Source of the DNA: Neorhizobium galegae
Lineage (GTDB): Bacteria > Pseudomonadota > Alphaproteobacteria > Rhizobiales > Rhizobiaceae
Length of the DNA: 64,000 nt
Assembly: GCF_017877055.1 (NCBI RefSeq)
Contig: NZ_JAGIPG010000001.1
Span: forward strand, 186,001-250,000
Reading direction: 5' to 3'
Shown here: positions 2,178 through 26,903 of the stretch, piece after piece
How the letters are laid out: every line of letters begins with the position of its first letter
Position numbering within the stretch: position 1 is the stretch's first letter
Translations under genes and position numbers: made by a program
Notes under the pieces: model-generated
Told to the model about the DNA's origin: nothing
Database searches by the model: none
Seen by the model: the letters and a program-made list of their open reading frames with translations, nothing else

Positions 2178-3248
2178 TTGCGCTTTGCGAGGATAGTCGA
2201 TTTGATATCTTTTTTGCCGATCGTGCATTCTCTGAGAAAAATTGCCGGGATGCCTTTCCCGGACATCGAAGCGGTTGCCGCTGATCGCTGGACGATTGCC
2301 CCGCAGACCCGGCGCTTCATTCGTCCCGCAAAGTTTCTCCCGCATCATCTCGATCGTATAAAGGGCACTCAGTTCGGCCCGATCGTCGAGGTCATCAGGG
2401 GGTTCAGGGGAAACTATGAAACTACCCAGGAGGCTACGGTTGGTTACCGGCTCAAGAATATCGATTTAATCGATGGCGTTCTCTACGCGCGGAAATGCTC
2501 AAGGAGCCTTAGACCCCGCAGCCGCCGGCTGCCTGTCTATGCGCCTCCCAGGCACTCGACCAGCGGTGCGCTCTTCGAAAGCTGGGTCGGCAATCGCTGG
2601 TTCGGCAACTGGCTTTCGGATGATTGCCTGACCTACCCTTTGGCGGACGAATTTGACACTCCGGTGACGACGCGACCGATCACATGGGAGCACGAGCCGC
2701 AATATGCCGCTAAACTCGACCTCAAGCCCATCCATGTCAGCGATGTCCATTTCGACGAGGTCGTCCTTTTCAGGGATAAGGGACAGAATGCGAGCAAGAA
2801 GAAACGCGCCGATCAGATCCGTCAAAAGCTTCTGGCATCGGCGCCGCCTTTTCCCGTTCATCCCGGCGTCTTCATCCTGCGGGGAAACAGGGGAGACAGC
2901 CGGCGGCTGTCGAACGAGACCGAGATCGCCGAACAGTTCGCATCGAAATATGGTTTTCGGATCATCGATCCGGTTGCTTCGTCGGTTGACGATATCATCC
3001 ACGCCTGTGCCGGCGCGCGCATCGTCGCCGGCGTTGAAGGCAGCCATCTGGTTCACGGACTGATGGTCATGCCGCCGGATTCGGCACTGTTCGTCATCCA
3101 GCCGGCAGATCGGGTAGTTTCAGCTCTCAAGGTCATCACCGATCGCCAGGGCCAAGGCTATGCTTTCGTCGTCGGCGAAGGGACCTGCGAAAACTTCCGC
3201 GTCGAATGGAGTGATATCGACCGCACATTGGAGATGGTGCTCGCATGA
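2178..3248 (+). CDS. Glycosyltransferase family 61 protein
   Basis: The longest frame starts at a TTG (2178, 356 aa). A TTG at 2202 with CGAGGA upstream, a GTG at 2223 and an ATG at 2250 are alternatives, so the start is uncertain. The C-terminal half has the GT61 (DUF563) pattern: FILRGNRGDSRRLSNE, then IVAGVEGSHLVHGLMVMPPD, which corresponds to the GxHGxGL...P region of the family, then a predicted nucleotide-sugar-binding tail. GT61 enzymes are common in capsule and exopolysaccharide clusters and add a sugar to a growing repeat unit in the cytoplasm. Its stop overlaps the next gene by ATGA, so the two are translationally coupled. Donor and acceptor sugars cannot be told from sequence. Confidence 0.75.
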   Translation: MRFARIVDLISFLPIVHSLRKIAGMPFPDIEAVAADRWTIAPQTRRFIRPAKFLPHHLDRIKGTQFGPIVEVIRGFRGNYETTQEATVGYRLKNIDLIDGVLYARKCSRSLRPRSRRLPVYAPPRHSTSGALFESWVGNRWFGNWLSDDCLTYPLADEFDTPVTTRPITWEHEPQYAAKLDLKPIHVSDVHFDEVVLFRDKGQNASKKKRADQIRQKLLASAPPFPVHPGVFILRGNRGDSRRLSNETEIAEQFASKYGFRIIDPVASSVDDIIHACAGARIVAGVEGSHLVHGLMVMPPDSALFVIQPADRVVSALKVITDRQGQGYAFVVGEGTCENFRVEWSDIDRTLEMVLA

Positions 3249-3874
3249 CGTCACGGCTTCGTTTTCTCTATCCTCAATCCGCGGCGATGCGCGACCATAG
3301 TAGCGGGGTATCCCCGCAGGCGCCTCCCGCCTCGTTTCGCGAACTGGTGCGGAAGGATTACGAGCGCCACGGCAGGACGATCCTCAATGCCGGCTTTATT
3401 TCGCTGCTGGTCTATCGCTTCGGCCGATGGGCGGGGAGCCGCCGAAGCCATATGGCCAGGCGACTCGCGCAGAAGATCTATGGCGCGATCAACATGGTCA
3501 TTTCGACACTCACGCGCGTGTGGATTCCGGCCGAGGTGACGCTCGGCGAGGGTTTTCACATCATCCACGTCGAGGGGTCGATCTCGATCCATCCGGATGC
3601 CGTGATCGGAAAACGATGCGGCATCATGCACAATGTCACGATCGGCACGAACATGAGCGCCGGCGCGCCCAGGATCGGCGATGACGTCTTTATCGGGGTG
3701 AACTCCACCATTCTTGGCGATATCCGCATCGGCGACCGGGTGCGGATAGGAGCCAATACAGCGGTCTCCACGGACGTGCCGTCGGATTCGATCGTCGTCG
3801 GTTCCCCGGCCAAGATCTATCCCCGCCTTGGCCCGTTTTCGAGCGAACACACCAAGACCGATGCCAGTCCCTGA
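3245..3874 (+). CDS. Serine O-acetyltransferase-like hexapeptide acyltransferase
   Basis: The ATG at 3245 overlaps the GT61 stop by 4 nt. The 209 aa protein has a helical N-terminal part (about residues 30-85) resembling CysE. A left-handed beta-helix of hexapeptide repeats follows (VTLGEGFHIIHVEGSISIHP, AVIGKRCGIMHNVTIG, PRIGDDVFIGVNSTILG, IRIGDRVRIGANTAVS) and ends in the usual SDSIVVGSPAKI loop. The conserved His of the IMHNVTIG segment is the likely catalytic base. The family transfers acetyl from acetyl-CoA to a hydroxyl. Given the operon, the acceptor is more likely a polymer sugar or its acyl group than free serine, but this is inference. Confidence 0.8.
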   Translation: MTSRLRFLYPQSAAMRDHSSGVSPQAPPASFRELVRKDYERHGRTILNAGFISLLVYRFGRWAGSRRSHMARRLAQKIYGAINMVISTLTRVWIPAEVTLGEGFHIIHVEGSISIHPDAVIGKRCGIMHNVTIGTNMSAGAPRIGDDVFIGVNSTILGDIRIGDRVRIGANTAVSTDVPSDSIVVGSPAKIYPRLGPFSSEHTKTDASP

Positions 3875-3899
3875 TCCACATCCGCTGGAGGAGTTTGCC

Positions 3900-5537
3900 A
3901 TGAACGCGTTGACCACCAACTTCTACCAGCTTCTGGCTGACAACCTCGGCGCCAGGCCGGGCAAGCCGGCGATCATCGACGGTCACCGCGCGGCGAGCTA
4001 TGCCGCGGTTGCGGCCGACGTTGATCGATTGGCGGGTTATCTGCAGAGCCGCAATATCCGGCCGGGCGACCGGGTGATCGTGCACCTGCGCAAGAGCCTC
4101 GCGGAGGTCACCGCCATGTTCGCCATCGCCAAGGTCGGTGGGGTGATCGTCAACGTCAACACGCAATGGACGGTCGAGCAGCTCGAATATGTCGCCAACG
4201 ACTGTGGTGCACGCCTGATGATCGTCGAGCCGAGGGTTGCCGAGGCTCTTGGCGCGCGTAAGCTACCTGACGCGGTCGACAGCGTTCTGGTCAAAGGCAA
4301 ATTGCCGGCCGAGACCATATTCGATGTCTGGGATCATCTTCCGGAAGATCTGTCAGGCGACGAGATCGCGCGCCTCGATACGGAACTTGCGATGATCATC
4401 TACACATCCGGTTCGACCGGCATGCCGAAGGGCGTGATGCTGACCCATCGCAACATCGTTGCCGGCGCCCGCTCCGTATCGCGCTATCTGGGCCTGAGGG
4501 AAGACGACCGGTTGCTCAGCGTCCTGCCCTACAGCTTCGACTATGGCCTGAACCAGTTGACGACCATGATGCTGATGGGCGGTACGGTCGTGCACCAGGC
4601 GGTACCGATGGCCACCGAAATCGTTCTGGCCATGCAGCGGCATCGGGTGACCGGCGTGGCCGCGGTGCCGCCGCTCTGGAGCCAGATCGTGCGGCTGCTG
4701 AAGGACAACCCCGTAGAGTTTCCCGCGCTTCGGCGGATCACCAATTCCGGCGGCAAGATTTCGCTCAACATCCTGGAGCAGATACCGCGGGTCTTCCCGG
4801 ATGCGGATGTCTATCTGATGTATGGGCTGACCGAGGCTTTCCGCTCGACTTACCTCTCGCCGCAGAAATTTACCCGCAAGATGGGAGCGATCGGCCAGGC
4901 GATCCCCGGCGCCGAAGTCTATGTCATCAAGCATGGCGAAGGCATCGCCCATCCCGGCGAACAGGGCGAACTCGTCCATCGCGGCCCGCTTGTCAGCCTT
5001 GGATATTGGGGCAAGCCGGAGGTGACGGAGCAGAAGATCCGGCCGTGTCCGGAACTCTGGCACCTGATCGGCGATGAACCGGTCGTCTATAGCGGCGATA
5101 TCGTCCGGATCGATGCCGATGGTGACCTCTGGTTTATCGGTCGCAATGACGCAATGATCAAGACCAGCGGCTTCCGCCTCAGTCCGGATGAGATCGAGGA
5201 TCTCGTCTGCCGCAGCGGCGTCGTGGCGGAGGCGGTTGCCTTCGGGGTAGACGACGAGGAACTCGGGCAAACCGTGCATGTAGCGATAACGCCGATCGGC
5301 GAGTTCGACGAAGAAGCCCTGCTGCGCTACTGCCGGCGGGCGATGCCGTCCTACATGGTGCCGCGGCAGTTCCACGTCTGGTCGGAAAGCATGCCGAGGA
5401 CGTCGAGCGGCAAGCTGGCACGGCCGGACGTGGTGCGCCTTTGTCGCGAATGGATGCAAGGCGGGGAAATTGCCCTAGGCGCGCCTCCGCCCGCAGCTCA
5501 GATCAAAGTGACCGAAACAAGGGAGAACCTGCAATGA
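3900..5537 (+). CDS. AMP-forming acyl-CoA/ACP ligase
   Basis: The ATG at 3900 follows a strong GGAGGAG (3886-3893 area); a longer frame upstream overlaps the previous gene without a ribosome site. The product is 545 aa. It shows the adenylate-forming motifs in order: A3 P-loop IIYTSGSTGMPKGV (about 163-176), LMYGLTEAFRS (A5), YSGDIVRIDADGDLWFIGR (A7), and RTSSGKLARPD with Lys505 (A10). Size and neighbours match the acyl-CoA ligase that in exosortase-A regions sits with an ACP and a PLP decarboxylase; no exosortase is visible here. It probably activates a carboxylic acid as the acyl-adenylate and loads it onto the ACP encoded immediately downstream (ATGA overlap). Confidence 0.88.
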   Translation: MNALTTNFYQLLADNLGARPGKPAIIDGHRAASYAAVAADVDRLAGYLQSRNIRPGDRVIVHLRKSLAEVTAMFAIAKVGGVIVNVNTQWTVEQLEYVANDCGARLMIVEPRVAEALGARKLPDAVDSVLVKGKLPAETIFDVWDHLPEDLSGDEIARLDTELAMIIYTSGSTGMPKGVMLTHRNIVAGARSVSRYLGLREDDRLLSVLPYSFDYGLNQLTTMMLMGGTVVHQAVPMATEIVLAMQRHRVTGVAAVPPLWSQIVRLLKDNPVEFPALRRITNSGGKISLNILEQIPRVFPDADVYLMYGLTEAFRSTYLSPQKFTRKMGAIGQAIPGAEVYVIKHGEGIAHPGEQGELVHRGPLVSLGYWGKPEVTEQKIRPCPELWHLIGDEPVVYSGDIVRIDADGDLWFIGRNDAMIKTSGFRLSPDEIEDLVCRSGVVAEAVAFGVDDEELGQTVHVAITPIGEFDEEALLRYCRRAMPSYMVPRQFHVWSESMPRTSSGKLARPDVVRLCREWMQGGEIALGAPPPAAQIKVTETRENLQ

Positions 5538-5767
5538 GCCTTACCCATGGAAAGTTGATTGGTTACCTGCAGGAATCCCTGAATATCGCCCATGCCGACA
5601 GCGAGAGCGAACTGTTCTCCTCTGGCTTGCTCGATTCCGTATCGATGGTGAACCTGCTGGCATTTATCGAACAAACGACGGGCCTTTCCATTCGCGCCGA
5701 AGACGTGACGCTCGAAAATTTCGATACGCCGGCGCGGATCATCCGTTTTGCCGAAGCCAGCGCGTGA
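5534..5767 (+). CDS. Acyl carrier protein
   Basis: A 77 aa acyl carrier protein whose ATG overlaps the ligase stop (ATGA). The motif GLLDSVSMVNLLAFIE carries the phosphopantetheine-accepting Ser35. The usual DSL is DSV here. The remaining sequence fits a four-helix carrier domain. It is presumably converted to holo form by the phosphopantetheinyl transferase at 11976-12626, charged by the ligase upstream, and acts with the decarboxylase downstream. As a discrete ACP in a three-gene coupled set, it probably carries a special acyl or aminoacyl unit rather than serving general fatty-acid synthesis. Confidence 0.88.
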   Translation: MSLTHGKLIGYLQESLNIAHADSESELFSSGLLDSVSMVNLLAFIEQTTGLSIRAEDVTLENFDTPARIIRFAEASA

Positions 5768-7005
5768 TGAACCACTATTCGGCGCTCGATGTCTGGCTGC
5801 AGAGTGCGGCCGCATTATTCGGAACCCCTTCCTATGTTTATCTGGCATCGGCGATCGAAAGCCGGGCGATGCTCCTGAGGCAGGCCTTCGAGGGGCGTTT
5901 TGCGCTGAGCTTTGCCGCAAAGAGCAACCCCAATCCGGCTTTGCTTTCCCTGATGAAGGGACAGGCGGAATATCTCGACGTCTCCTCCATCGGCGAGTTC
6001 AGGACGGCGATAACGGCGGGATGGGAGGCAGAGCGCATCAGCTTCACAGGCCCCGGAAAACGGCAGTTCGAAATCCGGGAGGCGATAGAATGCGGCATTG
6101 GCGAACTGATCCTGGAATCGGTGCGTGAGGCGGTGGTTGCGAACGCGATCGCCGCCGAGCTCGCACGTGTGCAGCGTGTCCTGGTGCGCATCGCGCCGAC
6201 CACGGTTCCCAAAGGGTTCGGCGACCAGATGGCCGGCCGGCCGTCGGCCTTCGGCATAGACTGGGAAGATATCGCAAGAGACATTCCCGACATTGCGGCT
6301 CTGCCCAATCTCAAGATCGTCGGACTGCACATCTATTCCGGTACGCAGTGCCTGAAGCCCGAGGCGATCTGCGAGAACTATCGCAACTTCATCGACATTT
6401 TCCGGGAGGTTTGCGAAGCTTACATTCCTCGGCCGGAGAAGCTGGTGTTTGGGTCAGGGCTCGGAATTCCCTATCACGACGGCGACCTGCCGCTCGACCT
6501 CTCCGCGGTCGTTGCCGGCATCGCACCGGATCTCGACGGCCTCAAGGCGTTGCCGCAATTTGCCGAGACCCGGCTGGTGCTCGAACTCGGGCGGTATCTC
6601 GTAGGCGAGGCCGGATATTTTCTGACGCGCGTCGTCTCGGTCAAGGAATCGCGCGGCGTGCGGATCGGCGTCTGCGATGGCGGCATGAACAACCATCTGC
6701 CGGCTTCCGGCCATTTCGGGATGGTGATGCATCGGAACTACACGATGCATAAGGTCGGCGGGCGGGGTGAGCCGGAGAAAGTCAATCTCGTCGGCCCTCT
6801 TTGCACCTCGATCGACCGGCTTGCCGTCGGGATGATGCTGCCGCGGATCGAAGAGGGTGATCTGGTCGCCGTGCATAACAGCGGCGCTTACGGACTGACG
6901 GCAAGCCCGATCCATTTCATCAGCCACGCGCCGCCCTGCGAGGTTCTCATCGAGGCCGCCGGGATGCGGGATGTCACCCACATCCCGGCGCCGCCATCGA
7001 TATAA
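5767..7005 (+). CDS. PLP-dependent decarboxylase (Orn/DAP/Arg decarboxylase 2 family)
   Basis: The ATG at 5767 overlaps the ACP stop (TGATG); a GTG at 5764 is also in frame. The product is 412 aa. It is a fold-III PLP enzyme: SFAAKSNPNPALL carries the PLP-binding Lys52, GLHIYSGTQ follows, then the glycine-rich VFGSGLGIPY phosphate loop, ELGRYLVGEAG, and GPLCTSIDRLA with the conserved Cys346 from the opposing subunit, ending in HNSGAYG. It is of the diaminopimelate/ornithine decarboxylase family and most like the decarboxylases linked with an acyl-CoA ligase and ACP in exosortase clusters. A plausible role is making an amine from an amino acid, possibly while it is tethered to the ACP. The substrate is not deducible. 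Confidence 0.85.
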   Translation: MNHYSALDVWLQSAAALFGTPSYVYLASAIESRAMLLRQAFEGRFALSFAAKSNPNPALLSLMKGQAEYLDVSSIGEFRTAITAGWEAERISFTGPGKRQFEIREAIECGIGELILESVREAVVANAIAAELARVQRVLVRIAPTTVPKGFGDQMAGRPSAFGIDWEDIARDIPDIAALPNLKIVGLHIYSGTQCLKPEAICENYRNFIDIFREVCEAYIPRPEKLVFGSGLGIPYHDGDLPLDLSAVVAGIAPDLDGLKALPQFAETRLVLELGRYLVGEAGYFLTRVVSVKESRGVRIGVCDGGMNNHLPASGHFGMVMHRNYTMHKVGGRGEPEKVNLVGPLCTSIDRLAVGMMLPRIEEGDLVAVHNSGAYGLTASPIHFISHAPPCEVLIEAAGMRDVTHIPAPPSI

Positions 7006-7027: not shown

Positions 7028-8467
7028 TCAGTAGGCCTTGCCGAAATCGCAGATCTCGATCGCGGTGCGGACGACGATCTTCATATCCAGCCAGAACGAC
7101 CAGTTGTTGATGTACCAGAGGTCGTGGAATATCCGCTCTTCCATCTTCTCGATGTTCGGCGTCTCGCCGCGGCAATTGTTGACCTGGGCCCAACCGGTCA
7201 GGCCGGGTTTGACGTGCCGCCTGAAGGCGTATTTGGCGATCTGGGCGTCATAGAGTTCGTCATGGGCAAGCGCATGCGGGCGGGGGCCGACAATCGACAT
7301 CTCGCCTCGAAGGACGTTCCAGAATTGCGGCAATTCATCAATGCTCGACGCGCGGATGACGGCCCCCACCTTCGTGACTCGGGGATCGTTCCGGGTCGCC
7401 TGGCGAATGTCGCCCGAATCTTCCATGACGGTCATGCTGCGGAATTTCAGGATTCGAAACGAGCGGCCGCCATATCCTTTGCGGACCTGGCTGAACAGCA
7501 CGGGGCCTTTGGAATCACATTTGATGGCAATCGCCACTACGAGCAACAACGGAAACAGCGAGAGGATGGCCGTCAGCGAGAAGACGATGTCGAATGCGCG
7601 CTTGGTGCCGCGTTCATAGAGGTTCAACGGTGGCCGCTGCGTCTGGAAAGCGGTCATGCTGCCGATCCTGCGGGCCGGGGCGCTGGTCAGCCGGCCGACG
7701 ACGCCATCGAAGATGACATTGACCGGCAAGGCCGAGCGCCTGAGTTCTCCAAGGTAGAATTCAAGATTGGAGACGTTCGGGTCCCGCCAGATGATGAATA
7801 CTTCATCTATGCTATCGGTCTCGCTTTGCCTCAGTCTCTGCAGGGCGTTTGCGGGCAGCAGATTTTCATCCGTGAGGCGGATGACCTGTGCGAGGACCAT
7901 GCCGCTTGCAGCGGCCTCGTGCTGCCAATGTTCGGTCGAGAACTCGCCGTGGCAGATCAGCAGTACCCGCCTCATCTTGAATGAGGCCGCAGCTGCCGCC
8001 GACGGCAGATACCAGTGCCAGAACAGGCGGGTGCAGATCAGCCCGGACAGAGAGATGACTGCGGTCATCAAGATCGCCCCGCGCGAGAACGTCGTGCCGA
8101 TCTTCAGAAAGAAGATGACCGTCAGCAGAAAGGCAAGAGCGCTTGGGATAAGAATGCAGATCAGCCGGATTTGCGGCCTCAGGAGCTGAATGCTCTCCGG
8201 GCTGTAGGCCTGGGCACTATGCATGGCGAGTACGAAGATCGTCGACAGGACAAGGCCGATGCCGATAAAAAGTGAAGGATCGGGCGCAGATCCGAAAACG
8301 ACATACTGATAGCCCGTGAAGCCGATACCGGTTGCTCCAAGAAGGTAGATGAAGTCCGTTGCGGCCGCCACATAGGCGATTACATGATATTCCGGTCCTC
8401 CCCGCGGAAGCTTGTGCTCATACGATATGTAGTCATTTCCGATGTTCGGCTCAAATGGTGTGACCAT
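7028..8467 (-). CDS. Polyprenyl-phosphate sugar phosphotransferase (WcaJ/ExoY-like, long form)
   Basis: This 479 aa protein has a hydrophobic N-terminal half with about four to five membrane segments (about 30-165) and a central CoA-binding-like region. It ends in a bacterial sugar transferase domain preceded by a further membrane segment (FDIVFSLTAILSLFPLLLVV). Key motifs are ILKFRSMTV, SSIDELPQFWNVLRGEMSIVGPRP and HVKPGLTGWAQVN. The family transfers a sugar-1-phosphate to undecaprenyl phosphate on the cytoplasmic face of the inner membrane, starting a polysaccharide repeat unit. It is a different protein from the short ExoY at 57146-57826, so this island has its own initiating enzyme and very likely makes a separate polymer. 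It is convergent with the decarboxylase gene (22 nt gap). Confidence 0.9.
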   Translation of the reverse strand: MVTPFEPNIGNDYISYEHKLPRGGPEYHVIAYVAAATDFIYLLGATGIGFTGYQYVVFGSAPDPSLFIGIGLVLSTIFVLAMHSAQAYSPESIQLLRPQIRLICILIPSALAFLLTVIFFLKIGTTFSRGAILMTAVISLSGLICTRLFWHWYLPSAAAAASFKMRRVLLICHGEFSTEHWQHEAAASGMVLAQVIRLTDENLLPANALQRLRQSETDSIDEVFIIWRDPNVSNLEFYLGELRRSALPVNVIFDGVVGRLTSAPARRIGSMTAFQTQRPPLNLYERGTKRAFDIVFSLTAILSLFPLLLVVAIAIKCDSKGPVLFSQVRKGYGGRSFRILKFRSMTVMEDSGDIRQATRNDPRVTKVGAVIRASSIDELPQFWNVLRGEMSIVGPRPHALAHDELYDAQIAKYAFRRHVKPGLTGWAQVNNCRGETPNIEKMEERIFHDLWYINNWSFWLDMKIVVRTAIEICDFGKAY

Positions 8468-8814: not shown

Positions 8815-8820
8815 ATGGGG

Positions 8821-17248: not shown

Positions 17249-17553
17249 AAAGCTTGTCCCCACTCGTTGCTGTTCCAGGCACTCCGATAGAAACGGGGTG
17301 CCGTCTAAAACTCAACATGCGCCGGACCAGCCATGCGGATGATCGCGCCTAAGCCTGAATTGCGGGCTGTACCCGCCTTTCCCCCATACGGATGATGACG
17401 GCTTCCAAAGGAGTAATTGCGATTGCGTCTTGGCTGGCAGCACATTGAGGCTGCGGGTTTGCGCTCGTGGATTTCAGCGGGAAGCGGAACGAGGCTCGTG
17501 GCATCATTGGGGTGATGTCATCAGGTTGGCCTCCGTGGATTAGGGCGGTGTCG
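17249..17553. promoter_or_regulatory. NRPS/PKS divergent promoter region
   Basis: About 305 bp separate the chosen starts of the divergent NRPS and PKS genes, so both assembly-line genes are probably controlled from here. In-frame upstream PKS starts at 17467 (GTG) and 17515 (ATG) would shorten it. No clear palindromic operator was seen. Confidence 0.45.
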
Positions 17554-20500
17554 ATGCTTGAGGGGTCAAACCAGGTCTGTGCCAGCGATATTGCAATCGT
17601 CGGCATGGCTTTGAGAGTGCCGGGTGCACGCAATGTTTCGGAATTCTGGCAGAACCTGCGAAACGGCGTAGAGTCGGTCCGGACGTTTTCGCCGGAGGAT
17701 CTGATCGCTGAAGGCGAAGACCCCGAGCGGATCCATCATCCCAACTATGTTCCTCGCGGCGCCGACCTTCCCGACATGGAAATGTTCGACGCGGAGTTCT
17801 TCGGCCTGAACCCGAAGGAAGCGGCGATCATGGATCCCCAGCACCGCCATTTCCTGGAATGCGCCTGGGAAGCCATGGAGGACGCCGGCCGGACGCCGAA
17901 CAATCAGCCTGGCCCGGTCGGTATTTTCGCCGGCTGCGGCATGGGCAGCTATTTCTATTTCAACGTCTGCAGCAATCGCAACTTGATCGACCAGGTAGGA
18001 ATGTTCCTGTTGCGCCATACGGGCAACGACAAGGATTTTCTGGCGACGCGAGCCTCGTTCACGTTCGACCTGCGCGGCCCGAGCGTCAATGTGCAGACCG
18101 CCTGCTCCACGTCGCTTGTGGCGGTGCATTATGCGTGCCAGAGCCTGATCTCCGGCGAATGCGACATGGCGCTTGCCGGCGGGGTGACGATCGAGTTTCC
18201 GCATCGCCGCGGATATACTTTCCAGGAAGGCGAGATCCTTTCGCCGGACGGGCACTGCCGGCCTTTCGATCATCGTGCCGCGGGGACCATTTTCGGCAGC
18301 GGCGTCGGGGTGGTCGTGCTTCGCCGGCTTTCGGATGCTCTGCGCGACGGCGATGTAATCCATGCCGTGATCAAGGGCACGGCCGTCAACAACGACGGCA
18401 GCAGCAAGGCCGGCTATCTGGCGCCGAGCGTCAGTGGGCAGGCGGAGGCGGTTCTGGAGGCTCAAGGGCTTGCAGGCGTCGATGCCGATACCATCCAATA
18501 TGTCGAGTGCCACGGCACCGGCACGTTCCTCGGCGATCCGATCGAGATCGAGGCACTGACGGCGGCCTTCAGGCAGAGCACCGACCGGACCGGCTTCTGC
18601 CATGTCGGATCGGTCAAATCGAATATCGGCCATCTCGACACAGCGGCCGGCGTCGTCGGTCTCATCAAGGCGACGCTGGCCGTAAACGAGGGCGAGATTC
18701 CGCCGACGCTCGGCTTCGAACGCCCCAACCCCTCGATCGATTTCGAGAAGAGCCCGTTCCGGGTCAACAACAAGCTGGTGAAGTGGCCGCATGCGCCAGG
18801 CCCCCGCCGGGCCGCCGTCAACTCGCTCGGCGTCGGCGGCACCAATGCGCATGCGATCATCGAGCAGGCGCCGACCCGTTACGTGGCCGACGCGGCCGGG
18901 GCCGATACGGAGGTCGGCGTCGATTCCGATCCCATGCTACTGTTTCTTTCGGCCCGTCAGCGCAAGACGATCGATCAGGCCGCCGAGCGGCTCGGCTCGG
19001 CGATGTCCGCTCAGCCCGGCCTTTCGCTCGATGACGTCAGCTATACGCTGCAGCACGGCCGCAAACATTTCGACCACCGCATGGTGGTCGCCGTCCGTGG
19101 CCGGGAGGACGCCATCGCGGTCCTTGCGAACCCCGGTAGCCGCGGTTTCGTTCATCAGCCCGTGCCGAACAATTCCGGCGCCATATTCCTCTTTCCGGGC
19201 GGCGGTGCTCAATATGTCGGCATGGCCAAGCGGCTCTACGAGGAGGATCCGACATTCCGGCGGACCGTCGAAGAGGGGCTTTCCCATCTGCCTATCGACG
19301 CAGCGAATGAGATTCGCACGGTGTGGCTCGGCGAGAACTCCGCAACGGCTGCGAAAACATTCCTTCGCCCCTCGCTTCAACTTCCCGCCATTCTGATCAC
19401 CGAGGTGGGGTTGTCCCGCCTGTGGATGGATTGGGGTGTGAAACCGAAGGCGCTGATCGGTCACTCCATGGGCGAGAACGCCGCGGCCTGTGTCGCCGGC
19501 GTGATGTCCTTCAAGGACGCCGTCAACCTGGTGCATCTGCGGGGCAAGCTGTTCGAGACTATTCGGCCTAGCGGCATGATGAGCGTACCGCTCGATCACG
19601 CCCGGCTTTCCGAACTCCTGCCGCCATCGCTCGACATCGCTTCGGTCAATGCGCCATCGCTTTGCGTCGTGTCAGGCCTCAACGAGGATCTCGACCGCTT
19701 CCGGGAATTTCTGGCGGGGCAGGGCATCGACGCGACGCGCGTGCCGATCGACATCGCCGCGCATTCGCGGCTGGTCACGCCCATTCTCAAAGCCTTCGAG
19801 GCTTTTCTGCGCGGTATTACTCTTCGGGCGCCGGCCATTCCGATCCTGTCGAATCGTACGGGCCTGCCGCTGAGCGCGGAAGAGGCGACCGATCCGATGT
19901 ACTGGGTCGATCATCTTCGCTCGACCGTTTATTTCGCGAACGGCATGGCAGCGCTGTCGGCGGAGCCGGGGCGCATCTATATCGAAGTAGGTCCCGGGCG
20001 GGTTCTGTCGTCGCTGACAAAGGCACAAGGGTCGATCCCGGCAAACCAGGTGATCAACAGCTTGCCGCATCCCGACGAGGCCGGCGACGATCGGCTCCAT
20101 TTCCTCTCCGCCGTGGGGCGGGCCTGGGCGACCGGGCTCGAGGTCGATATCGACCGCCTATGGCAAGGCTGCTCGCCGCGCCGGGTCAGGCTGCCGGCCT
20201 ATCCGTTCCAGCACAAGCGCTTTTTCATAGACCGCGCCGGAGCGAATGAGAGAGGCAAAAGCACCGAGCCCGTCCTTTCGAAGGAACCCGATATCGCGCG
20301 CTGGGGCTATCGCCCCTCCTGGAAGCAGACGCTAGCCGATTACGAACTGGGCGCCGAGAAGGAGGCCCAATCCTGGCTCTTTTTCCTCGACGAGGCGGGG
20401 GTCGGCCAGAAGCTGGTCGAAACGCTGAGGACGGCAGGCCACCGCGTCGTCACGGTGTCCCTGGGCGACGCTTTCATTCGTCGCAGCGCCGAGGACTATA

Positions 20501-23500
20501 TGCTCTGCCCGGAACTGGGCCGCGCCGGATATGATGCCCTCATTGCCGGACTTGCCGGTGATGGCGGCCTGCCGTCGCGTATCGTGCATATGTGGCTTCT
20601 GACCCAGGGGGAAACCTTCCGGCCCGGCTCGAACTTCTTCCATCGAAACCAGGAATGCGGTTTCGACAGCATGTTGCACCTCGCCCAGGCCCTGGGGGAC
20701 GCAGCCAGCGTTCCGGAAATACACTTCACTGTCATCACCAACGGCATGCAGCAGGTTTTGGGCGAGCCGCTGCCCTATCCCGAAAAGGCGACCGTCCTGG
20801 GGCCAAGCCTGGTCCTGCCGAAGGAGATGGCTGGCTCAACGGTTAGGGTGATCGATATCGACCTGCCGCCCAAGGCCGACCGGCAGGGCAAACGTTTCGC
20901 CTTCGCCGGTTTGGCGGGGAGGGCAGAGAAGAAGGAGGCCACCGACCCGGCGTTGATCGAGCAGCTCTGGGAAGATCTGCATGCCAAGCCGGGATCCGAA
21001 ATCGTTGCCCTGCGCAAAGGGCGGCGCTGGTCGCAGGTTCATCAGCGGCTGCCATTGAAAGACGTATCATCCGATCAGGCGACACTGCGCGAGGGCGGCG
21101 TCTACTTCTTCTCCGGCGGCTTGAGCGACGTCGCTTTGGCGCTTGCCGACGAGCTCGCCGGCCGGTTCCGGGCGCGGATCGTGCTAGTCGGCCGCACCGT
21201 TGTGCCGCCGAGGGAAAACTGGGAATTCTACGATCGCACCCACGGCCATGACGTCGTTCGGCGGGCGATTTCGGCAATCCGGAGGCTTGAGGAGAAGGGG
21301 TCGGAAGTTCTTTATCTGGTCGGTGATGTCGGCAATCCGGAGCAGATGAGCCAGGCGGTCGAGACGTCGCTCTCCCGGTTCGGGCAAATCAACGGTGTCT
21401 TCCATGCGGCCGGCACGGTTGATGACGGCCTGATGCAGACCAAGACGCGCGACAGCCTCGACAGGGTCCTGACCCCGAAAGTGCTCGGCACCACCGTGCT
21501 GGATGCGGCATTCGAAAACGTGGCACTCGATTTCTTCCTGATGTTCTCCTCCACCAGCACCGATGTGGTGCGGGCAGGGCAGGTCGACTATGTCGCCGCG
21601 AACGCCTATCTCAACGCCTTCGCGCAGAGCCGTACCCATCGCGCCGACCGCGCCACCGTGGCGCTGCATTGGGGCGTCTGGAATGAAGTCGGTCTTGCGG
21701 CCCGGGCGCTTGGCAGGTCTGAAGGTGGCGGGTGGATCAAGCCGGTTGCCGGGCCGGCTGGCGGTCCGTTCTTCCAGCACTGGAAAGAGGATGAGACAGG
21801 GTTGCCCTGGCTTGAGGCGCTGGTCAGCGCCGAGACGGAATGGATGCTCGACGAGCATCGGCTGCTTTCCGGCCAGGCGGTCATGCCGGGCACCGGCTAT
21901 CTGGAGTTGATTGCACAGGCGTCTCGGGAATACGGACTTCCGTTCGAAGCGGAAGTGGCGGACCTCGTATTCCTGAGACCGCTTGCATTCAACGACGGAG
22001 AGAAGAAGGCTGTTCGAGTGCGGTTGGAGCCGGCGGCGGAACATTTCCGCGTCGTGGTTCTGGCAGGCCCGGCTGACGGTGAGGATGCGTTGTTCGTCAA
22101 GCACGCCGAAGCCGTCCTCAAGCCGCATCCGCAACAGAGGCGCGCGACGATCGACATCGCCGCTGTCGCGTCTCAATGCGATGAGACACAGGTCTCCGGA
22201 GGCGGCAGCACGCTTCGCGCGGTTCAGGAGAAGCATATCCGCTTTGGCCCCCGCTGGGCCGTCCTGCGCTCCATGGCGATGGGAGGCGGCAAGGCCATTG
22301 CGGGATTGAAACTGGACCCGATCTTTGCCGATGATCTAGCGAAAGGCGTCCTGCTGCATCCGGGTCTGCTCGACATCGCGACCGGCTTTGCCATGCAGCT
22401 TGCCAAGGACTACGACGCCGAGACCTCGCTTTGGGCGCCGGCAACCTATGGCCGGGTGGCCCTTCACATGCCCCTGCCGGCCGAGATCGTCAGTGTCGTA
22501 GAACTCGCCGACAGCAGCGATTTCGGCGAGGGTTATGCGGCCTTCGACGTGACGATCACCGATCTTCACGGCAATATCGTCTTCGAAGCCGAAAAATTCG
22601 TCATGCGCAGGCTGGAGAACGATCTTGCGCTCGGTCTCGCATCCCAAGCGGATGCGCCGGCTGCCGTCAAAGCGAAGCCGGCCGCGCTTTCTCCGGCGAT
22701 GTTGAAGCTCGGTACCCAGGTGCGCAACGGTATCCTGCCGGCGGAGGGTTTCTCGGCTCTGCAACGCGCGCTCGGCACATCCGAACCTCAGCCGATCATC
22801 AGTTCGATCGATCTCGAAACCCTGCGCGAATGGATTGCCGCCTCTGCCGAAACCGCGACGCCGTCGGGCGACAATTTCGAGCGGCCGGACCTCGAAAGCG
22901 AGTTCGTCGAGCCGCGCAATCCGATCGAGGAGACGCTGGCCGGCTATTGGCGGGAGCTCCTCGGCATCGCCAAGGTCGGCATCCACGACAGTTTCTTCGA
23001 CATGGGCGGACATTCGCTGATCGCGGTTCGCCTGTTCCGGATGATCAAGAAACAATATGCGCTCGACCTGCCGATATCGACGCTGTTCGAGGCGCCGACC
23101 ATTGCCCAATGCGCCGAGCGGATTGCCGCGGAAGTGCCGGATGCAGGTGAGGCCGCGGGACCCGAGCTCACGGCGCGTCTGCCGACGACGGCAAAGCCGG
23201 TCCATCTGGTCCTGATGAACCCCGGTAGGAATGCAAAGGCAACCCCGCTGTTCATCTGTGCCGGCATGTTCGGCAATGTCCTGAACCTTCGCCATCTGGC
23301 AATGACCATGGGTGCTGACAGGCCCGTCTACGGATTGCAGGCCCGCGGACTTTACGGCGACCACGAGCCGCACGCGACGTTCGAAGAGATGGCGGCCGAC
23401 TACATCGCCGAAATCCGGACGGTGCAGCCCAACGGACCCTATCTTCTCGCCGGCTATTCAGGTGGCGGCATAACCGCCTTTGAAATGGCCCAGCAGCTTC

Positions 23501-24102
23501 AAGATGCGGGAGAAGAGGTTTCCCAGGTGATCATGCTGGACACGCCCATGCCGCGGCAGCCGGGGCTGGGTTTGCGTGACCGTATCAGCATGAAGTTGCA
23601 GGATATACGCCGGCATAAGATGGGATTTGTCGGCACGTATCTGAGGGATCGCCGTGCCTATCATGAGCAACAGCGGGCCAAGCTTGAGTTGGAGCATCAA
23701 GGTGAATCGCCGGAGTATTTCAACAATGTCCGGATAGAGATGGCGTTCAGGAGAGCGTTGCTCAGGTATGATGTCAGATCTTATTCCGGGAGCGTCACGT
23801 TGTTTCGTCCCAAGCCCGATATATTTTATAGCCTTGGTGGCGGCCGTCACCTGAAGCAGAACCGCGATGTATTGCTGCCGGACAATGGGTGGGCCGGGCA
23901 CGTGCCGCAATTGCGAGTGTCGGAAGTGCCGGGAGACCACGACAGCATGGTGCTCGATCCGTATGTTCGTGTGCTCTCCGAGCACATGCGTGCTGTCCTT
24001 GCAGCCTCCGCCGTCTCGGCTGCGCTCCCTCGGAAAGCCGATGTGGAGGCCAAAGTTCAAAGCGGGGCACCGCCCCGGGAACAGGTCGCCGAGATTGCTT
24101 AG
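17554..24102 (+). CDS. Type I polyketide synthase, KS-AT-KR-DH-ACP-TE
   Basis: The ATG at 17554 has AGGGCGG upstream; 17515 and 17467 are alternatives. The product is 2182 aa. The KS (9-441) has TACSTS (Cys184), ECHGTGT and KSNIGH. The AT (543-825) has GHSMGE (Ser638). The KR (1176-1391) has a VDD in the LDD position of B-type enzymes and VDYVAANAY (Tyr1346), but its cofactor loop reads SGGLSDVA instead of TGGxGxxG. The DH (1405-1690) has DEHRLLSGQAVMPG (His1435) and HPGLLD (Asp1607). The ACP has GGHSL (Ser1821). A thioesterase has GYSGG (Ser1969) and GDHDS (His2129). KR before DH is not the usual order. One elongation, reduction and dehydration followed by hydrolysis or transfer is predicted; with the NRPS this would give a formyl-aminoacyl enoate. 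The extender unit (AT motif AAHS) is uncertain. Confidence 0.93.
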   Translation: MLEGSNQVCASDIAIVGMALRVPGARNVSEFWQNLRNGVESVRTFSPEDLIAEGEDPERIHHPNYVPRGADLPDMEMFDAEFFGLNPKEAAIMDPQHRHFLECAWEAMEDAGRTPNNQPGPVGIFAGCGMGSYFYFNVCSNRNLIDQVGMFLLRHTGNDKDFLATRASFTFDLRGPSVNVQTACSTSLVAVHYACQSLISGECDMALAGGVTIEFPHRRGYTFQEGEILSPDGHCRPFDHRAAGTIFGSGVGVVVLRRLSDALRDGDVIHAVIKGTAVNNDGSSKAGYLAPSVSGQAEAVLEAQGLAGVDADTIQYVECHGTGTFLGDPIEIEALTAAFRQSTDRTGFCHVGSVKSNIGHLDTAAGVVGLIKATLAVNEGEIPPTLGFERPNPSIDFEKSPFRVNNKLVKWPHAPGPRRAAVNSLGVGGTNAHAIIEQAPTRYVADAAGADTEVGVDSDPMLLFLSARQRKTIDQAAERLGSAMSAQPGLSLDDVSYTLQHGRKHFDHRMVVAVRGREDAIAVLANPGSRGFVHQPVPNNSGAIFLFPGGGAQYVGMAKRLYEEDPTFRRTVEEGLSHLPIDAANEIRTVWLGENSATAAKTFLRPSLQLPAILITEVGLSRLWMDWGVKPKALIGHSMGENAAACVAGVMSFKDAVNLVHLRGKLFETIRPSGMMSVPLDHARLSELLPPSLDIASVNAPSLCVVSGLNEDLDRFREFLAGQGIDATRVPIDIAAHSRLVTPILKAFEAFLRGITLRAPAIPILSNRTGLPLSAEEATDPMYWVDHLRSTVYFANGMAALSAEPGRIYIEVGPGRVLSSLTKAQGSIPANQVINSLPHPDEAGDDRLHFLSAVGRAWATGLEVDIDRLWQGCSPRRVRLPAYPFQHKRFFIDRAGANERGKSTEPVLSKEPDIARWGYRPSWKQTLADYELGAEKEAQSWLFFLDEAGVGQKLVETLRTAGHRVVTVSLGDAFIRRSAEDYMLCPELGRAGYDALIAGLAGDGGLPSRIVHMWLLTQGETFRPGSNFFHRNQECGFDSMLHLAQALGDAASVPEIHFTVITNGMQQVLGEPLPYPEKATVLGPSLVLPKEMAGSTVRVIDIDLPPKADRQGKRFAFAGLAGRAEKKEATDPALIEQLWEDLHAKPGSEIVALRKGRRWSQVHQRLPLKDVSSDQATLREGGVYFFSGGLSDVALALADELAGRFRARIVLVGRTVVPPRENWEFYDRTHGHDVVRRAISAIRRLEEKGSEVLYLVGDVGNPEQMSQAVETSLSRFGQINGVFHAAGTVDDGLMQTKTRDSLDRVLTPKVLGTTVLDAAFENVALDFFLMFSSTSTDVVRAGQVDYVAANAYLNAFAQSRTHRADRATVALHWGVWNEVGLAARALGRSEGGGWIKPVAGPAGGPFFQHWKEDETGLPWLEALVSAETEWMLDEHRLLSGQAVMPGTGYLELIAQASREYGLPFEAEVADLVFLRPLAFNDGEKKAVRVRLEPAAEHFRVVVLAGPADGEDALFVKHAEAVLKPHPQQRRATIDIAAVASQCDETQVSGGGSTLRAVQEKHIRFGPRWAVLRSMAMGGGKAIAGLKLDPIFADDLAKGVLLHPGLLDIATGFAMQLAKDYDAETSLWAPATYGRVALHMPLPAEIVSVVELADSSDFGEGYAAFDVTITDLHGNIVFEAEKFVMRRLENDLALGLASQADAPAAVKAKPAALSPAMLKLGTQVRNGILPAEGFSALQRALGTSEPQPIISSIDLETLREWIAASAETATPSGDNFERPDLESEFVEPRNPIEETLAGYWRELLGIAKVGIHDSFFDMGGHSLIAVRLFRMIKKQYALDLPISTLFEAPTIAQCAERIAAEVPDAGEAAGPELTARLPTTAKPVHLVLMNPGRNAKATPLFICAGMFGNVLNLRHLAMTMGADRPVYGLQARGLYGDHEPHATFEEMAADYIAEIRTVQPNGPYLLAGYSGGGITAFEMAQQLQDAGEEVSQVIMLDTPMPRQPGLGLRDRISMKLQDIRRHKMGFVGTYLRDRRAYHEQQRAKLELEHQGESPEYFNNVRIEMAFRRALLRYDVRSYSGSVTLFRPKPDIFYSLGGGRHLKQNRDVLLPDNGWAGHVPQLRVSEVPGDHDSMVLDPYVRVLSEHMRAVLAASAVSAALPRKADVEAKVQSGAPPREQVAEIA

Positions 24103-24227
24103 TCAATGGACGATGGCCGGATCCTGAAAATACCGATTTCGCAAATTGCCATGACGCGCTCAGGGCACGCCGTTTGTGTGCTTTCGCCAGCGAACTGGAA
24201 GTCTTCCTAAAGAACGAGGAGTATTCT

Positions 24228-25691
24228 GTGAGTGAAGCAATCATTCCCTCGGATTGGAAGCAGGTTTCTTCCCCACACGCCAGGGAGCGGTTGCCTCTGG
24301 ACTCTTCACCTGTGACGGTTCAGCCACCGAAACGGCGTCTTCGCACTACCATTATTCAGGCCGCGGGTTGGTCGATGATGGGTTATCTTCTCTCGCAGCT
24401 AATACGCATCGGAAGTAATCTGGTGCTGACAAGGCTGCTGATTCCGGAAATGTTCGGCATTATGGCGGTCGCCACCATGATCCAGGTGTCGGTCGCCATG
24501 CTGTCTGATCTCGGGCTCAGGCCCGCAGCCATACAGAGCCAATTTGGCGACGACCAATCCTATCTCGATACCGCGTGGACGCTGCAAATCATCCACGGCT
24601 GCTTGATCTGGTTTGCCTGCGTCCTGATAGCGATCGGGATCGGGCGTGCCGCCGAGTATGGCCTGTTTCCGGCCGGATCGGTCTACACGGTCACGTCGCT
24701 GCCAGCCATCATCATGGGAATGTCTTTCTGTACTGTGATTATGGGGCTGCAATCCACTAAATTGATCTCTGCGTTTCGGCACCTCGATCTTGGGCGCGTA
24801 ACTTTAATTGAGATAGTGGCTCAGGTTGTGAATTTGGCGGTGGCGATATCGCTTGCCTGGTACACCGGCTCGATTTGGTCGTTCGTCGCATCGACACTTT
24901 TAGCCGCATTGACGACCACCATTCTCACTCACATATGGTTGCCGGGTCAGCATAACAGCCTCTACTGGGAAGCTGCGGCGATAAAGGACCTTATTCGATT
25001 TGGCCGCTGGATCATGCTGTCGTCGATCCTTACGATGATAGCAGCCAATGGAGACCGCATCTTTCTCGCCGGATGGACCAGCCCCCTCATGCTTGGCTTC
25101 TATAGCCTGGCCTTCAATCTCATTTCGATGCTGGAAGGTGCCGGTGGCAGGCTATTTTCAAACGTGGCGATGCCAGCCTTAGGCGGGATCGCAAGGGAAC
25201 GCCCGGAGCAGCTCGGCTCCATGTTCTGGAAAATGCGATTGCCGCTGGATCTTGCCTTCATCGGAAGTGCGGGCGCAATCTATTCGAGCGGTGCGGCAAT
25301 CATCGAAGCGCTCTATGATGATCGCTATCGGGATGCCGCTCCAATTATCCAGATATTGTCGTTCAGCCTTCTCATCATGCGCTTCGGTCCGCTATCTGCG
25401 ATTTATCTTGCCGTTAACGAACCGCGTAATCAAACCGTCATGAATTTCATTCGCGCGGTTTCAAGCTTTATATGTCTACCCCTTGGTTATTACCTGTTCG
25501 GGTTCGAAGGTGCGGTATGGGCGGCCGCGCTTTACGGGCTGCCGGTATTTCCGGCAATTCTGTATTTTAATCACCGTCACGGCCTCAACAATTTCCTCTA
25601 TGAAGCGGGCGTGTTGTTGGCTTGGCCCGCGGGCTATTTGGCGGGAAGCCTTGCAACGGGCATTCTCGACAATGCTGGCCCGCTGTTTTAG
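24228..25691 (+). CDS. Oligosaccharide flippase (Wzx/MOP family)
   Basis: A GTG at 24228 is preceded by GAGGAG at 24216-24221 (6 nt). Earlier in-frame codons run into the PKS gene and are not needed. The 487 aa product has a short polar N-terminus and about twelve to fourteen hydrophobic segments. It starts with GWSMMGYLLSQLIRIGSNLVLTRLL, the typical first helix of polysaccharide biosynthesis flippases, followed by PEMFGIMAVATM. Such proteins move lipid-linked oligosaccharides across the inner membrane. It lies 125 bp downstream of the PKS on the same strand and ends the island's biosynthetic block. It may flip the island's own lipid-linked unit, and could in principle also serve succinoglycan because no exoT is present in the window. 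Confidence 0.88.
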   Translation: MSEAIIPSDWKQVSSPHARERLPLDSSPVTVQPPKRRLRTTIIQAAGWSMMGYLLSQLIRIGSNLVLTRLLIPEMFGIMAVATMIQVSVAMLSDLGLRPAAIQSQFGDDQSYLDTAWTLQIIHGCLIWFACVLIAIGIGRAAEYGLFPAGSVYTVTSLPAIIMGMSFCTVIMGLQSTKLISAFRHLDLGRVTLIEIVAQVVNLAVAISLAWYTGSIWSFVASTLLAALTTTILTHIWLPGQHNSLYWEAAAIKDLIRFGRWIMLSSILTMIAANGDRIFLAGWTSPLMLGFYSLAFNLISMLEGAGGRLFSNVAMPALGGIARERPEQLGSMFWKMRLPLDLAFIGSAGAIYSSGAAIIEALYDDRYRDAAPIIQILSFSLLIMRFGPLSAIYLAVNEPRNQTVMNFIRAVSSFICLPLGYYLFGFEGAVWAAALYGLPVFPAILYFNHRHGLNNFLYEAGVLLAWPAGYLAGSLATGILDNAGPLF

Positions 25692-25703
25692 CCAGGAGCC
25701 GCC

Positions 25704-25950: not shown

Positions 25951-25966
25951 GATAAATATTTTTATC
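25951..25966. promoter_or_regulatory. AT-rich palindrome upstream of the LuxR gene
   Basis: GATAAA-TATT-TTTATC is a perfect inverted repeat about 150 bp upstream of the regulator start. It could bind a dimeric protein, perhaps the regulator itself. This is pattern only. Confidence 0.25.
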
Positions 25967-26117
25967 TAGCTGCTTACTTGCGGATAGACTAAATTACGTA
26001 TCTGCTGTATATTGGCGTTAATAAAAGGTTGAAAGGTGTAGAGACAGTCTGTTGGCGTACTTATAGTTGCGGTTCCTGAAGGGGACAATCATCCTAGACT
26101 TCAGGTAAGGGGGTAAG

Positions 26118-26903
26118 ATGAGTTCCACACCAAGCGGCTACAGCCGTTCTCCTGCTGTGGCAGAATCCTTTCGCATTATAAATGATATCCCAAAGCTCGC
26201 TGAAAGAGATGATCGAGGCAGTGAGGGAGTAAACCACGATGGATGCCTTGTGATCATCGACGCGAGAGCGCTTGATCGAGAATGCCTTGCCAAAGCCCTT
26301 ATCGGGCGTGGCCTCGAGATGGATGTCTGCGCTGTCGGCTCCATCGACGAATGGAAGTTGGAAAAAGATCTCTATCCGCCTGTCCAGGCTGTTCTGTTCA
26401 ATATAGGCAGCCGAAAGGCCGACGATCCCGCACTTGCGACTGACATCTCGAAATTGACGGCCGAGTTCAAGTCGCCGCCGATCATCGTGCTCTCCGACTC
26501 CGACGATCTCGCACAGGTCGTGAAAATGTTGGAATATGGGGCTCGAGGTTTCATTCCCTCCTGCGTCGGCATCGGCGTCTGCGTGGAAGCGATCAGCCTG
26601 GCCGTTGCCGGCGGGATTTTCGTTCCGGCAAGCAGCGTCCTCTCCATGCGCCACCTGGTCAGCGCTGCGACATCGGCGGCGGAGCACCGGCCACTCTCGG
26701 GAATGTTCACCCTGCGCCAGGAAGCGGTGGTCGAAGCTCTTCGCAAGGGCAAGGCCAACAAGATCATCGCCTACGAGCTCAATCTGCGGGAAAGCACGGT
26801 CAAGGTCCATATCCGCAACATCATGAAGAAGCTGAAAGCGACAAACCGTACCGAGGTCGCCTACAAACTCAATGACCTCTTCCCATACGGAGCGGCTAAC
26901 TAG
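26118..26903 (+). CDS. LuxR-family regulator with degenerate receiver domain
   Basis: The ATG at 26118 follows AAGGGGGTAAG. The product is 261 aa. Residues about 42-180 have the fold pattern of a response-regulator receiver (LVIIDARALDRECLAKAL, PPIIVLSDSDD, LEYGARGFIPS). The third strand ends in VLFNIGS, so the phospho-acceptor Asp is Asn, and the conserved Lys is also missing. The C-terminus is a GerE/LuxR helix-turn-helix (FTLRQEAVVEALRKGKANKIIAYELNLRESTVKVHIRNIMKKL). It therefore probably binds DNA without classical phosphorylation control. Position at the end of the island suggests it regulates the island or the neighbouring adhesin; neither is shown by sequence. Confidence 0.87.
   Translation: MSSTPSGYSRSPAVAESFRIINDIPKLAERDDRGSEGVNHDGCLVIIDARALDRECLAKALIGRGLEMDVCAVGSIDEWKLEKDLYPPVQAVLFNIGSRKADDPALATDISKLTAEFKSPPIIVLSDSDDLAQVVKMLEYGARGFIPSCVGIGVCVEAISLAVAGGIFVPASSVLSMRHLVSAATSAAEHRPLSGMFTLRQEAVVEALRKGKANKIIAYELNLRESTVKVHIRNIMKKLKATNRTEVAYKLNDLFPYGAAN

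Follow-up and report, generated by a model that had tools for sequence, protein, structure and literature searches.

Within a 64,000-nucleotide stretch of the Neorhizobium galegae genome (hereafter the window; contig NZ_JAGIPG010000001.1, positions 186,001 to 250,000, forward strand) we found one large sugar-polymer locus at 1-28.4 kb, in which the genes of a non-ribosomal peptide synthetase (NRPS) and a polyketide synthase (PKS) are central. The tie of this NRPS-PKS pair to the polymer is well supported, and because the assembly line sits inside, and stays with, sugar-polymer genes in many soil and marine bacteria, it suggests that an unusual polymer building block is made there and not a free compound. 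The NRPS (12629-17263, minus strand) and the PKS (17467-24102, plus strand) form a divergent pair. The gene of the 4'-phosphopantetheinyl transferase (PPTase) lies downstream of the NRPS after a gap of 2 bases, and beyond it come the GT2 glycosyltransferase, the GMC oxidoreductase, the sugar transferase and then a run of GT61, hexapeptide transferase, ligase, acyl carrier protein (ACP) and decarboxylase genes, whereas the flippase gene directly follows the PKS. All the genes named when this block was originally predicted to join an NRPS-PKS line to a surface-polymer gene set are present as open frames. The domains, the intact active-site motifs, the conserved linkage and the co-occurrence described below are read directly from the DNA. 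The genes are as follows, with the counts of neighbour clusters taken over 61 sources that include the window, and with L090 denoting the adjoining stretch on the left.

12629..17263, minus strand: NRPS, 1544 aa, with formyltransferase, linker, monooxygenase-split adenylation domain and carrier (domain matches)
17467..24102, plus strand: PKS, 2211 aa, one module of ketosynthase (KS), acyltransferase (AT), ketoreductase (KR), dehydratase (DH), ACP and thioesterase (TE) (domain matches, active-site motifs in 41 rows)
11976..12626, minus strand: PPTase, which activates carrier domains (cluster in 41/61 sources)
10448..11683, minus strand: GT2 glycosyltransferase that co-occurs with the NRPS (Pfam and co-occurrence)
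7028..8467, minus strand: polyprenyl-phosphate sugar-1-phosphate transferase, which starts the repeat unit (TIGR03025, above cut-off)
24150..25691, plus strand: Wzx-type flippase, start unfixed (profile match)
1..639, minus strand: Wza-like polysaccharide export protein, truncated at the edge of the window (full gene at L090:17338-18639, Poly_export)
725..1936, plus strand: SGNH-like protein 1, hydrophobic N-terminal stretch by eye (alignment only, without Pfam match)
27317..28429, minus strand: SGNH-like protein 2, signal-peptide-like start by eye (alignment only, without Pfam match)
2178..3248, plus strand: GT61 glycosyltransferase (Pfam)
3245..3874, plus strand: hexapeptide-repeat (CysE-like) acyltransferase, candidate acyl transfer enzyme (profile matches)
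about 3900..5537, plus strand: AMP-forming acyl ligase (nearest TIGR03098, below its cut-off)
about 5534..5767, plus strand: free-standing ACP (Pfam-type domain search)
5764..7005, plus strand: pyridoxal phosphate (PLP) decarboxylase (nearest BtrK, an L-glutamyl-ACP decarboxylase, among solved structures)
8815..10410, plus strand: GMC oxidoreductase (Pfam; cluster in 19/61 sources)
26118..26903, plus strand: LuxR-type response-regulator-like transcription factor (profile matches)

Window and L090 together carry the set of a Wzx/Wzy-dependent exopolysaccharide pathway (sugar transferase, Wzx, Wzy, Wzz-like protein and Wza). Within about 8 kb left of the window, L090 holds Wzy and three more glycosyltransferases, as well as Wzz-like and CpsD/ParA-like proteins, both named by eye and neither with a Pfam match; Wzz matches occur in other loci of NRPS relatives. 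The surface-polymer set had been called complete-looking for the interval 2178..26903, which itself has no polymerase or chain-length gene: the genes are there, but these two functions are found in L090, and the export protein also lies outside the interval. In an alignment of 18 rows, the SGNH-like proteins have invariant GHSL, G72, D247, H250 and E128, lack the block III Asn and give no Pfam match, the hallmark residues of SGNH enzymes being Ser in block I, Gly in II, Asn in III and Asp-x-x-His in V. A search of the cluster for repeats gave nothing of note.

The PPTase-NRPS pair stood up to inspection, yet its NRPS is not a plain module, since a luciferase-like monooxygenase (MOX) is inserted in the adenylation domain (TIGR04020, MupA/Atu3671; 471.1 bits against a cut-off of 244.45). 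The protein consists of a formyltransferase (residues ~1-310), a linker (~325-560), the split adenylation domain with the monooxygenase at 792-1141, and a carrier at 1445-1507; the insertion falls between an FDIS motif (residue 749) and a THLQC stretch (residue 1166). This monooxygenase region is filled to at least 97% in 55/55 NRPS relatives, and its nearest solved structure is PuwE (6ket, 1.6e-103). The formyltransferase residues N, H and D, which we take to be catalytic, are likewise present in all 55 aligned rows, at the N terminus of a protein with adenylation and carrier domains. Compared with solved structures, this domain has its highest scores against Met-tRNA formyltransferases and ArnA, followed by several amino-sugar formyltransferases, with LgrA lower. 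A full condensation domain was considered for the NRPS and discarded, there being no Pfam match and only a weak resemblance of the last ~70 of the ~230 linker residues to the end of the Txo1/Txo2 condensation domain; a remnant of a condensation-domain C-lobe in the linker is possible.

The adenylation code of the window NRPS, DILQFGMIWK, has one difference from DILQLGMIWK. Among the 55 rows, DILQFGMIWK stands in 35 and DILQLGMIWK in 8, while position 299 is Y or M in 9, position 330 is V in 2, and 1 row is cut; set against DILQLGMIWK, this amounts to 8 identical rows, 44 differing at 299 only, 1 at V330 only, 1 twice and 1 cut at the last position. According to a published survey, all four MOX-bearing glycine domains in its set carry DILQLGMIWK (PMC12283262). 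Because the code matches these domains, N-formylglycine, with or without the hydroxyl group, is the predicted starter made by the NRPS.

The PKS has KS, AT and ACP in one chain, as in a cis-AT type I module, and almost all of the 41 aligned rows retain its active-site motifs. Its AT domain carries GHSMGE together with AAHS, where HAFH or YASH is usual; AAHS is common to ZmaA, which we take to be a hydroxymalonyl-ACP transferase, and to 5yda, the best solved relatives. No genes for a hydroxymalonyl-type extender were recognised, no dedicated search having been made. The same holds for a cyclodehydratase, and conglobatin-like formation of an oxazole from formylglycine was dropped as a candidate. 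PKS relatives accompany the NRPS in 65/68 rows: 52 are full length in the stretch, 6 are cut by the stretch end (L048, L049, L052, L057, L069, L077), 6 lie elsewhere in the genome (L053, L055, L056, L068, L071, L078), some of them, judging by position, apparently on the same contig, and L108, at a contig end, has the first part of the PKS alone. At E 1e-60 no PKS was found for the other three rows, L050 and the Acidimicrobiales L085 and L086. In the Acidimicrobiales relatives L085, L086 and L087 the NRPS is followed by a protein of 614-696 aa, that of L085 being without a Pfam match.

To place the pair in a wider context, we compared 73 stretches with related NRPS genes, of which L080, L083, L084, L087 and L089 were dropped (NRPS frame cut), so that 68 were scored and entered the tree. 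By 14 glycan queries taken from the window locus, L034 and L057, which miss remote relatives (e.g. L081), at least one glycan place lies within 10 kb of the NRPS in 59/68 loci and at least three in 45/68, with none in nine. On the NRPS tree, built by a quick method without bootstrap, with SH-aLRT support and an unfixed root, the 59 glycan-linked loci are one side of a single branch (SH-aLRT 100), and 0/500 shuffles clustered as well as observed, a test of clustering only and one that near-copies help. This clade spans Rhizobiaceae, Phyllobacteriaceae, Devosiaceae, Aurantimonadaceae, Methylobacteriaceae, Xanthobacteraceae and Stappiaceae, as well as Rhodobacterales and one Novosphingobium bin. 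The window's nearest named NRPS relatives include N. tomejilense, N. vignae and N. galegae (93-94% identity), and the locus is likewise present in N. alkalisoli. Counting the window genome, this kind of NRPS is found in 21/297 genomes of the family with the sister type included (15 are of the main type), and in 10/385 genomes sampled class-wide, a search in which nine other genomes matched and six were fetched, G617 (contig start), G545 and G560 (partial matches) being left out.

The split into 15 main-type and 6 sister-type genomes was made by identity and coverage of the NRPS matches. A Polysacc_synt_3 flippase lies at most 40 kb from the NRPS in 13/15 family genomes with the main type (0.95 expected), a Bac_transf gene in 10/15 (0.93 expected) and a Poly_export gene in 12/15 (0.88 expected), and none of the three occurs within 40 kb in the 6 sister-type genomes. 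Both main-type genomes in which the flippase was not seen there have fragmented assemblies, of 930 contigs in G150 and 420 in G174. Furthermore, the GT2 enzyme at 10448-11683 has relatives at E 1e-40 in only 13/297 family genomes, 11 of which carry the main-type NRPS; 11/15 NRPS genomes against 2/282 others have it (Fisher p 3e-15, kinship uncorrected). The GT2 gene without NRPS was seen in L105 and L106 (G057, G265), next to a WecG/TagA-type gene. As expected for a block inherited together, inter-locus distances correlate, with r 0.99 for NRPS and PKS (40 loci) and r 0.96 for NRPS and GT2 (34 loci). Pfam matches were sought for 19 distinct recurrent neighbour clusters from L090 and other loci, which comprise glycosyltransferases, Wzy, Wzz, export protein, WecG, GH9, ATPases, GMC oxidoreductase and a TolC-family protein, the L090 clusters c19, c25 and c28 being without match; the neighbours identified in this way are almost all sugar-polymer genes.

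The same arrangement recurs in plasmid records, 14 of which cover at least 80% of the NRPS. On the Ruegeria conchae plasmid NZ_CP081104, sugar transferase, PKS, GT2, NRPS and PPTase stand in a single run, accompanied by rhamnose genes, a flippase, a GMC oxidoreductase and the exosortase XrtD. Paracoccus sp. Arc7-R13 (plasmid NZ_CP034811) has a PKS, GT2 and NRPS run with flippase, sugar transferase and GMC oxidoreductase. The GT2 gene stands between PKS and NRPS in Ruegeria (2 bases from each), in Paracoccus (4-base overlap with each) and in L097-L100 and L108. The Arc7-R13 polymer cluster contains a second NRPS with condensation, adenylation, peptidyl carrier and thioesterase domains (C-A-PCP-TE; L111:668-4546), so a polymer may be supplied by more than a single assembly line. 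The Aminobacter niigataensis plasmid NZ_OX341518 holds a TolC-family gene, PKS, NRPS, PPTase, glycosyltransferases and GH9 along with an O-antigen ligase family gene, export protein and flippase, and the Shinella zoogloeoides plasmid NZ_CP132312 holds flippase, PKS, NRPS, PPTase, WecB/TagA and GT2 along with sugar transferase, export protein and an O-antigen ligase family gene. Database annotation masks the link, labelling the NRPS 'MupA/Atu3671 family FMN-dependent luciferase-like monooxygenase'. Two cases of repeated NRPS genes were noted, each compatible with duplication or an assembly effect: identical rows on different contigs in Ectorhizobium quercum (L057, L077), and two equal-scoring copies in G231 (contigs C11 and C16).

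The original prediction had made its link depend on NRPS/PKS genes not occurring elsewhere without glycan genes. The link holds in 59/59 clade loci, but some pairs outside the clade have no glycan genes in the sequence that was covered. In the sister pairs L101-L104 both genes stand in a row (NRPS 40-43% and PKS 35-39% identical to the window's), the stretches end in or just after the PKS with the far side outside view, and ten neighbour proteins were scanned, of which one, in L102, is a glycosyltransferase; one pair lies near transporter genes. Two of the six sister-type genomes, G054 and G118 (L103 and L104), are covered by the 40 kb comparison and fall outside the clade on the tree, in which the other four are not included. 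For L075 and L088, with short flanks, three neighbours were scanned and none are glycan genes, and the deep relative L081 scores zero by the glycan queries, yet Pfam matches there identify GT4, GT2, Wzy and Wzz. Given the sister pairs without glycan genes, either the PKS-NRPS pair is older than the polymer tie or the tie was lost in places, the tree root being unfixed. The glycan link is a property of the 59-locus clade and not of the NRPS-PKS pair as such.

The window locus holds a second set of biosynthetic genes. Compared with solved structures, the PLP decarboxylase is nearest to BtrK (1.7e-63; best diaminopimelate decarboxylase 8.9e-43). Beside it stand the ACP and the AMP-forming ligase, upstream of which the genes for the hexapeptide transferase and GT61 run the same way, and a decarboxylase of the BtrK kind with an adjacent ACP is what butirosin-type genes have, its glutamyl-ACP substrate being putative. 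In the butirosin pathway, BtrK turns glutamyl-BtrI into γ-aminobutyryl (GABA)-BtrI (PMC7857480). Relatives of the decarboxylase at 1e-80 occur in 4/297 genomes, three of them of the window's genus and with the NRPS, and such relatives also occur in 14 of 59 named loci, a collection that a single pattern scan with the NRPS of the window yielded and that includes near relatives, two identical Ectorhizobium rows among them; in Devosia submarina (L094) decarboxylase and ACP adjoin the PKS. Confined to few loci, the ligase/ACP/decarboxylase set is an add-on and not core. Among the same named loci, the LuxR-type regulator has relatives in three closely related Neorhizobium loci (97-98%) and in a single Methylobacterium locus (42%). 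An exosortase-A/PEP-CTERM locus was rejected for the window genome (G000): the ligase (532.8 against 592.35 for TIGR03098) and the decarboxylase (359.8 against 478.45 for TIGR03099) are both below cut-off, and a PF09721 search of this genome gave no exosortase match.

We hypothesise, at a little better than an even chance, a dedicated assembly line within the Wzx/Wzy-dependent exopolysaccharide pathway, whose product is joined to the polymer. By its family, the PPTase would load the carriers. The NRPS would activate glycine, as its code indicates, and its intact domains point to formylation of the glycine and hydroxylation of the alpha carbon by the monooxygenase, giving an N-formyl-(hydroxy)glycyl-carrier. 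The divergent PKS would take up this starter at its KS for one extension, followed by ketoreduction and probably dehydration, and the thioesterase would release or transfer a small N-formyl gamma-amino acid with four backbone carbons. The acyl group could then be attached to the repeat unit while this is still lipid-linked, ahead of its flipping, polymerisation and export, an attachment to which the gene linkage points; alternatively, the acyl product could be a non-sugar residue or aglycone glycosylated by the associated GT2. Candidates for the transfer are the thioesterase itself, the hexapeptide transferase, the SGNH-like proteins and the GT2 using the product as aglycone. In Neorhizobium, the ligase, ACP and BtrK-like decarboxylase may provide a second supply, an aminoacyl-derived amine on its own ACP, with the hexapeptide transferase of the same operon as the likely transfer enzyme. 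More broadly, and tentatively, at somewhat short of an even chance, we propose that widespread alphaproteobacterial exopolysaccharides bear N-formyl-(hydroxy)glycine plus one ketide per repeat unit, made by a portable PKS-NRPS-PPTase-GT2 block, to which Neorhizobium adds a GABA-like group by a butirosin-like ACP route. The original interpretation is partly supported overall. Its formyl-aminoacyl-polyketide fits the domain set and narrows to N-formyl(-hydroxy)glycine with one extension, and its amine group fits the BtrK-like decarboxylase set; either may be attached to a glycan, as the gene linkage suggests.

If the proposal is right, genome mining misreads a whole clade of clusters as free-product assembly lines, and in some rhizobia, methylobacteria, Devosia, Aureimonas and marine Rhodobacterales the surface sugars bear possibly unsought acyl groups, which could matter for attachment and biofilms.

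Several observations weigh against a polymer-bound product of this structure. The unusual AAHS motif leaves the extender unfixed, and dehydration is unsure because the spacing in the DH motif exceeds the usual HxxxGxxxxP by one residue. As several amino-sugar formyltransferases outscore LgrA, the formyltransferase might act on a sugar amine and not on glycine. N-formyl-hydroxyglycine thioesters may come apart, as happens in amide-forming MOX modules, into formamide and a glyoxylyl thioester, and after such breakdown the polymer group would be a 4-oxo acid without the formyl amide. There is no conserved transfer enzyme, the hexapeptide cluster being found in 12/61 and the SGNH-like cluster in 21/61 sources. 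At E 1e-40 the GT2 is missing from four of the 15 NRPS genomes and present in two that lack the NRPS, the distance correlation arises for co-inherited genes even without joint function, and two Acidimicrobiales genomes (L085, L086) have a related NRPS without such a PKS. Other points speak at the same time for a free exported secondary metabolite (a signal, metallophore or antibiotic-like compound) whose place would be explained by shared regulation in biofilms or a mobile island: the terminal thioesterase of the PKS would equally fit a free acid, a TolC-family (outer-membrane efflux) gene lies beside the PKS in six loci (L042, L046, L051, L064, L074, L076; neighbours of this kind are found in Aminobacter, Mesorhizobium, Devosia and the Novosphingobium bin, and also at L110:11819-13162), related pairs outside the clade (L101-L104, L088) show no glycan genes in the stretches seen, one of them near transporter genes, and copies occur on plasmids.

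We nevertheless regard a free metabolite as unlikely, since, TolC-family aside, there is no small-molecule exporter among the identified recurrent neighbours (some clusters are unassigned), no TonB plug domain is nearby, the NRPS co-occurs with one GT2 subfamily, and the GT2 gene even sits inside the PKS-NRPS run in the Rhodobacterales records, L097-L100 and L108. The original statement that no iron-uptake receptor is visible was borne out: of six TonB-receptor plug domains in the genome at E 0.001, one is on the cluster's contig, ~820 kb away, and a siderophore locus is not supported, with no TonB receptor in or by the cluster. The linkage evidence would serve equally for a glycolipid or glycan cap, with one acyl group per chain or lipid anchor instead of per-repeat decoration, and the core block holds one GT2; this appears improbable, as Wzy and Wzz-like genes at many loci imply a repeat polymer and one acyl unit of C4-C5 would make a short lipid part. 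Chance neighbourhood in polysaccharide-rich genomes has in its favour that there are several such loci per genome, the window's own second one lying at 54-64 kb. We give it hardly any credence in view of the flippase found in 13/15 genomes against 0.95 expected and in 0/6 of the sister type, of the single clade of 59, and of the GT2 co-occurrence.

The remainder of the window adds further observations. At 29088-42980 lies a 4630-residue repeat protein (DUF5801, cadherin-like, RTX and one C-type lectin domain), followed at 43410-48313 by type I secretion genes, both between two polysaccharide loci. The second of these, at 54516-63885, has Wzy_C, an export protein and a WbaP-like sugar transferase, together with, by eye, glycosyltransferase-like frames and an acyltransferase-3-looking membrane protein (62728-63885); the Rfam small RNA Atu_L1 matches at 58525-58685 on the minus strand. 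On the left, L090:7971-9545 (cluster c25) is without a Pfam match and glycoside-hydrolase-like by eye, and stands beside the locus in 5/61 sources and also in L098 and L100.

All the domains involved are already known, and it is their link with a sugar polymer over a wide clade that seems new: no description of it was found in the open-access literature searched (e.g. PMC10204066, PMC5466765, PMC12283262, PMC8739492, PMC7857480, PMC11340318), subscription papers and preprints being outside this scope. The promonan cluster of Sphingomonas shares with the window locus the sugar transferase, glycosyltransferases, Wzx, Wzy, Wzz, Wza and acyltransferase, the sections available naming an OafA-family acyltransferase and no NRPS or PKS (PMC11340318). 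With exosortase-A exopolysaccharide loci the window has in common a ligase and decarboxylase nearest TIGR03098 and TIGR03099, though under the cut-offs, and the Ruegeria locus, unlike the window genome, does carry exosortase XrtD. The butirosin genes BtrI, BtrJ and BtrK offer the parallel of a free ACP and a BtrK-nearest PLP decarboxylase; in contrast, the window ligase belongs to the AMP-forming superfamily, to which BtrJ is not known to belong, and the predicted acceptor is a polysaccharide and not an aminoglycoside. Module 4 of SolF (solanimycin) and modules of myxothiazol and melithiazol share with the window NRPS the glycine-type code DILQ-G-M-WK as well as the insertion of a flavin monooxygenase (PMC12283262, PMC10204066), whereas the window NRPS, placed among polysaccharide genes, is of the initiation type, carrying a formyltransferase but lacking a full condensation domain. 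Finally, LgrA of linear gramicidin has the same order of formyltransferase, adenylation and carrier domains with N, H and D present, but the window formyltransferase scores nearer to Met-tRNA formyltransferase, ArnA and amino-sugar formyltransferases, and the window NRPS has an extra linker and a monooxygenase, with a PKS next in line.

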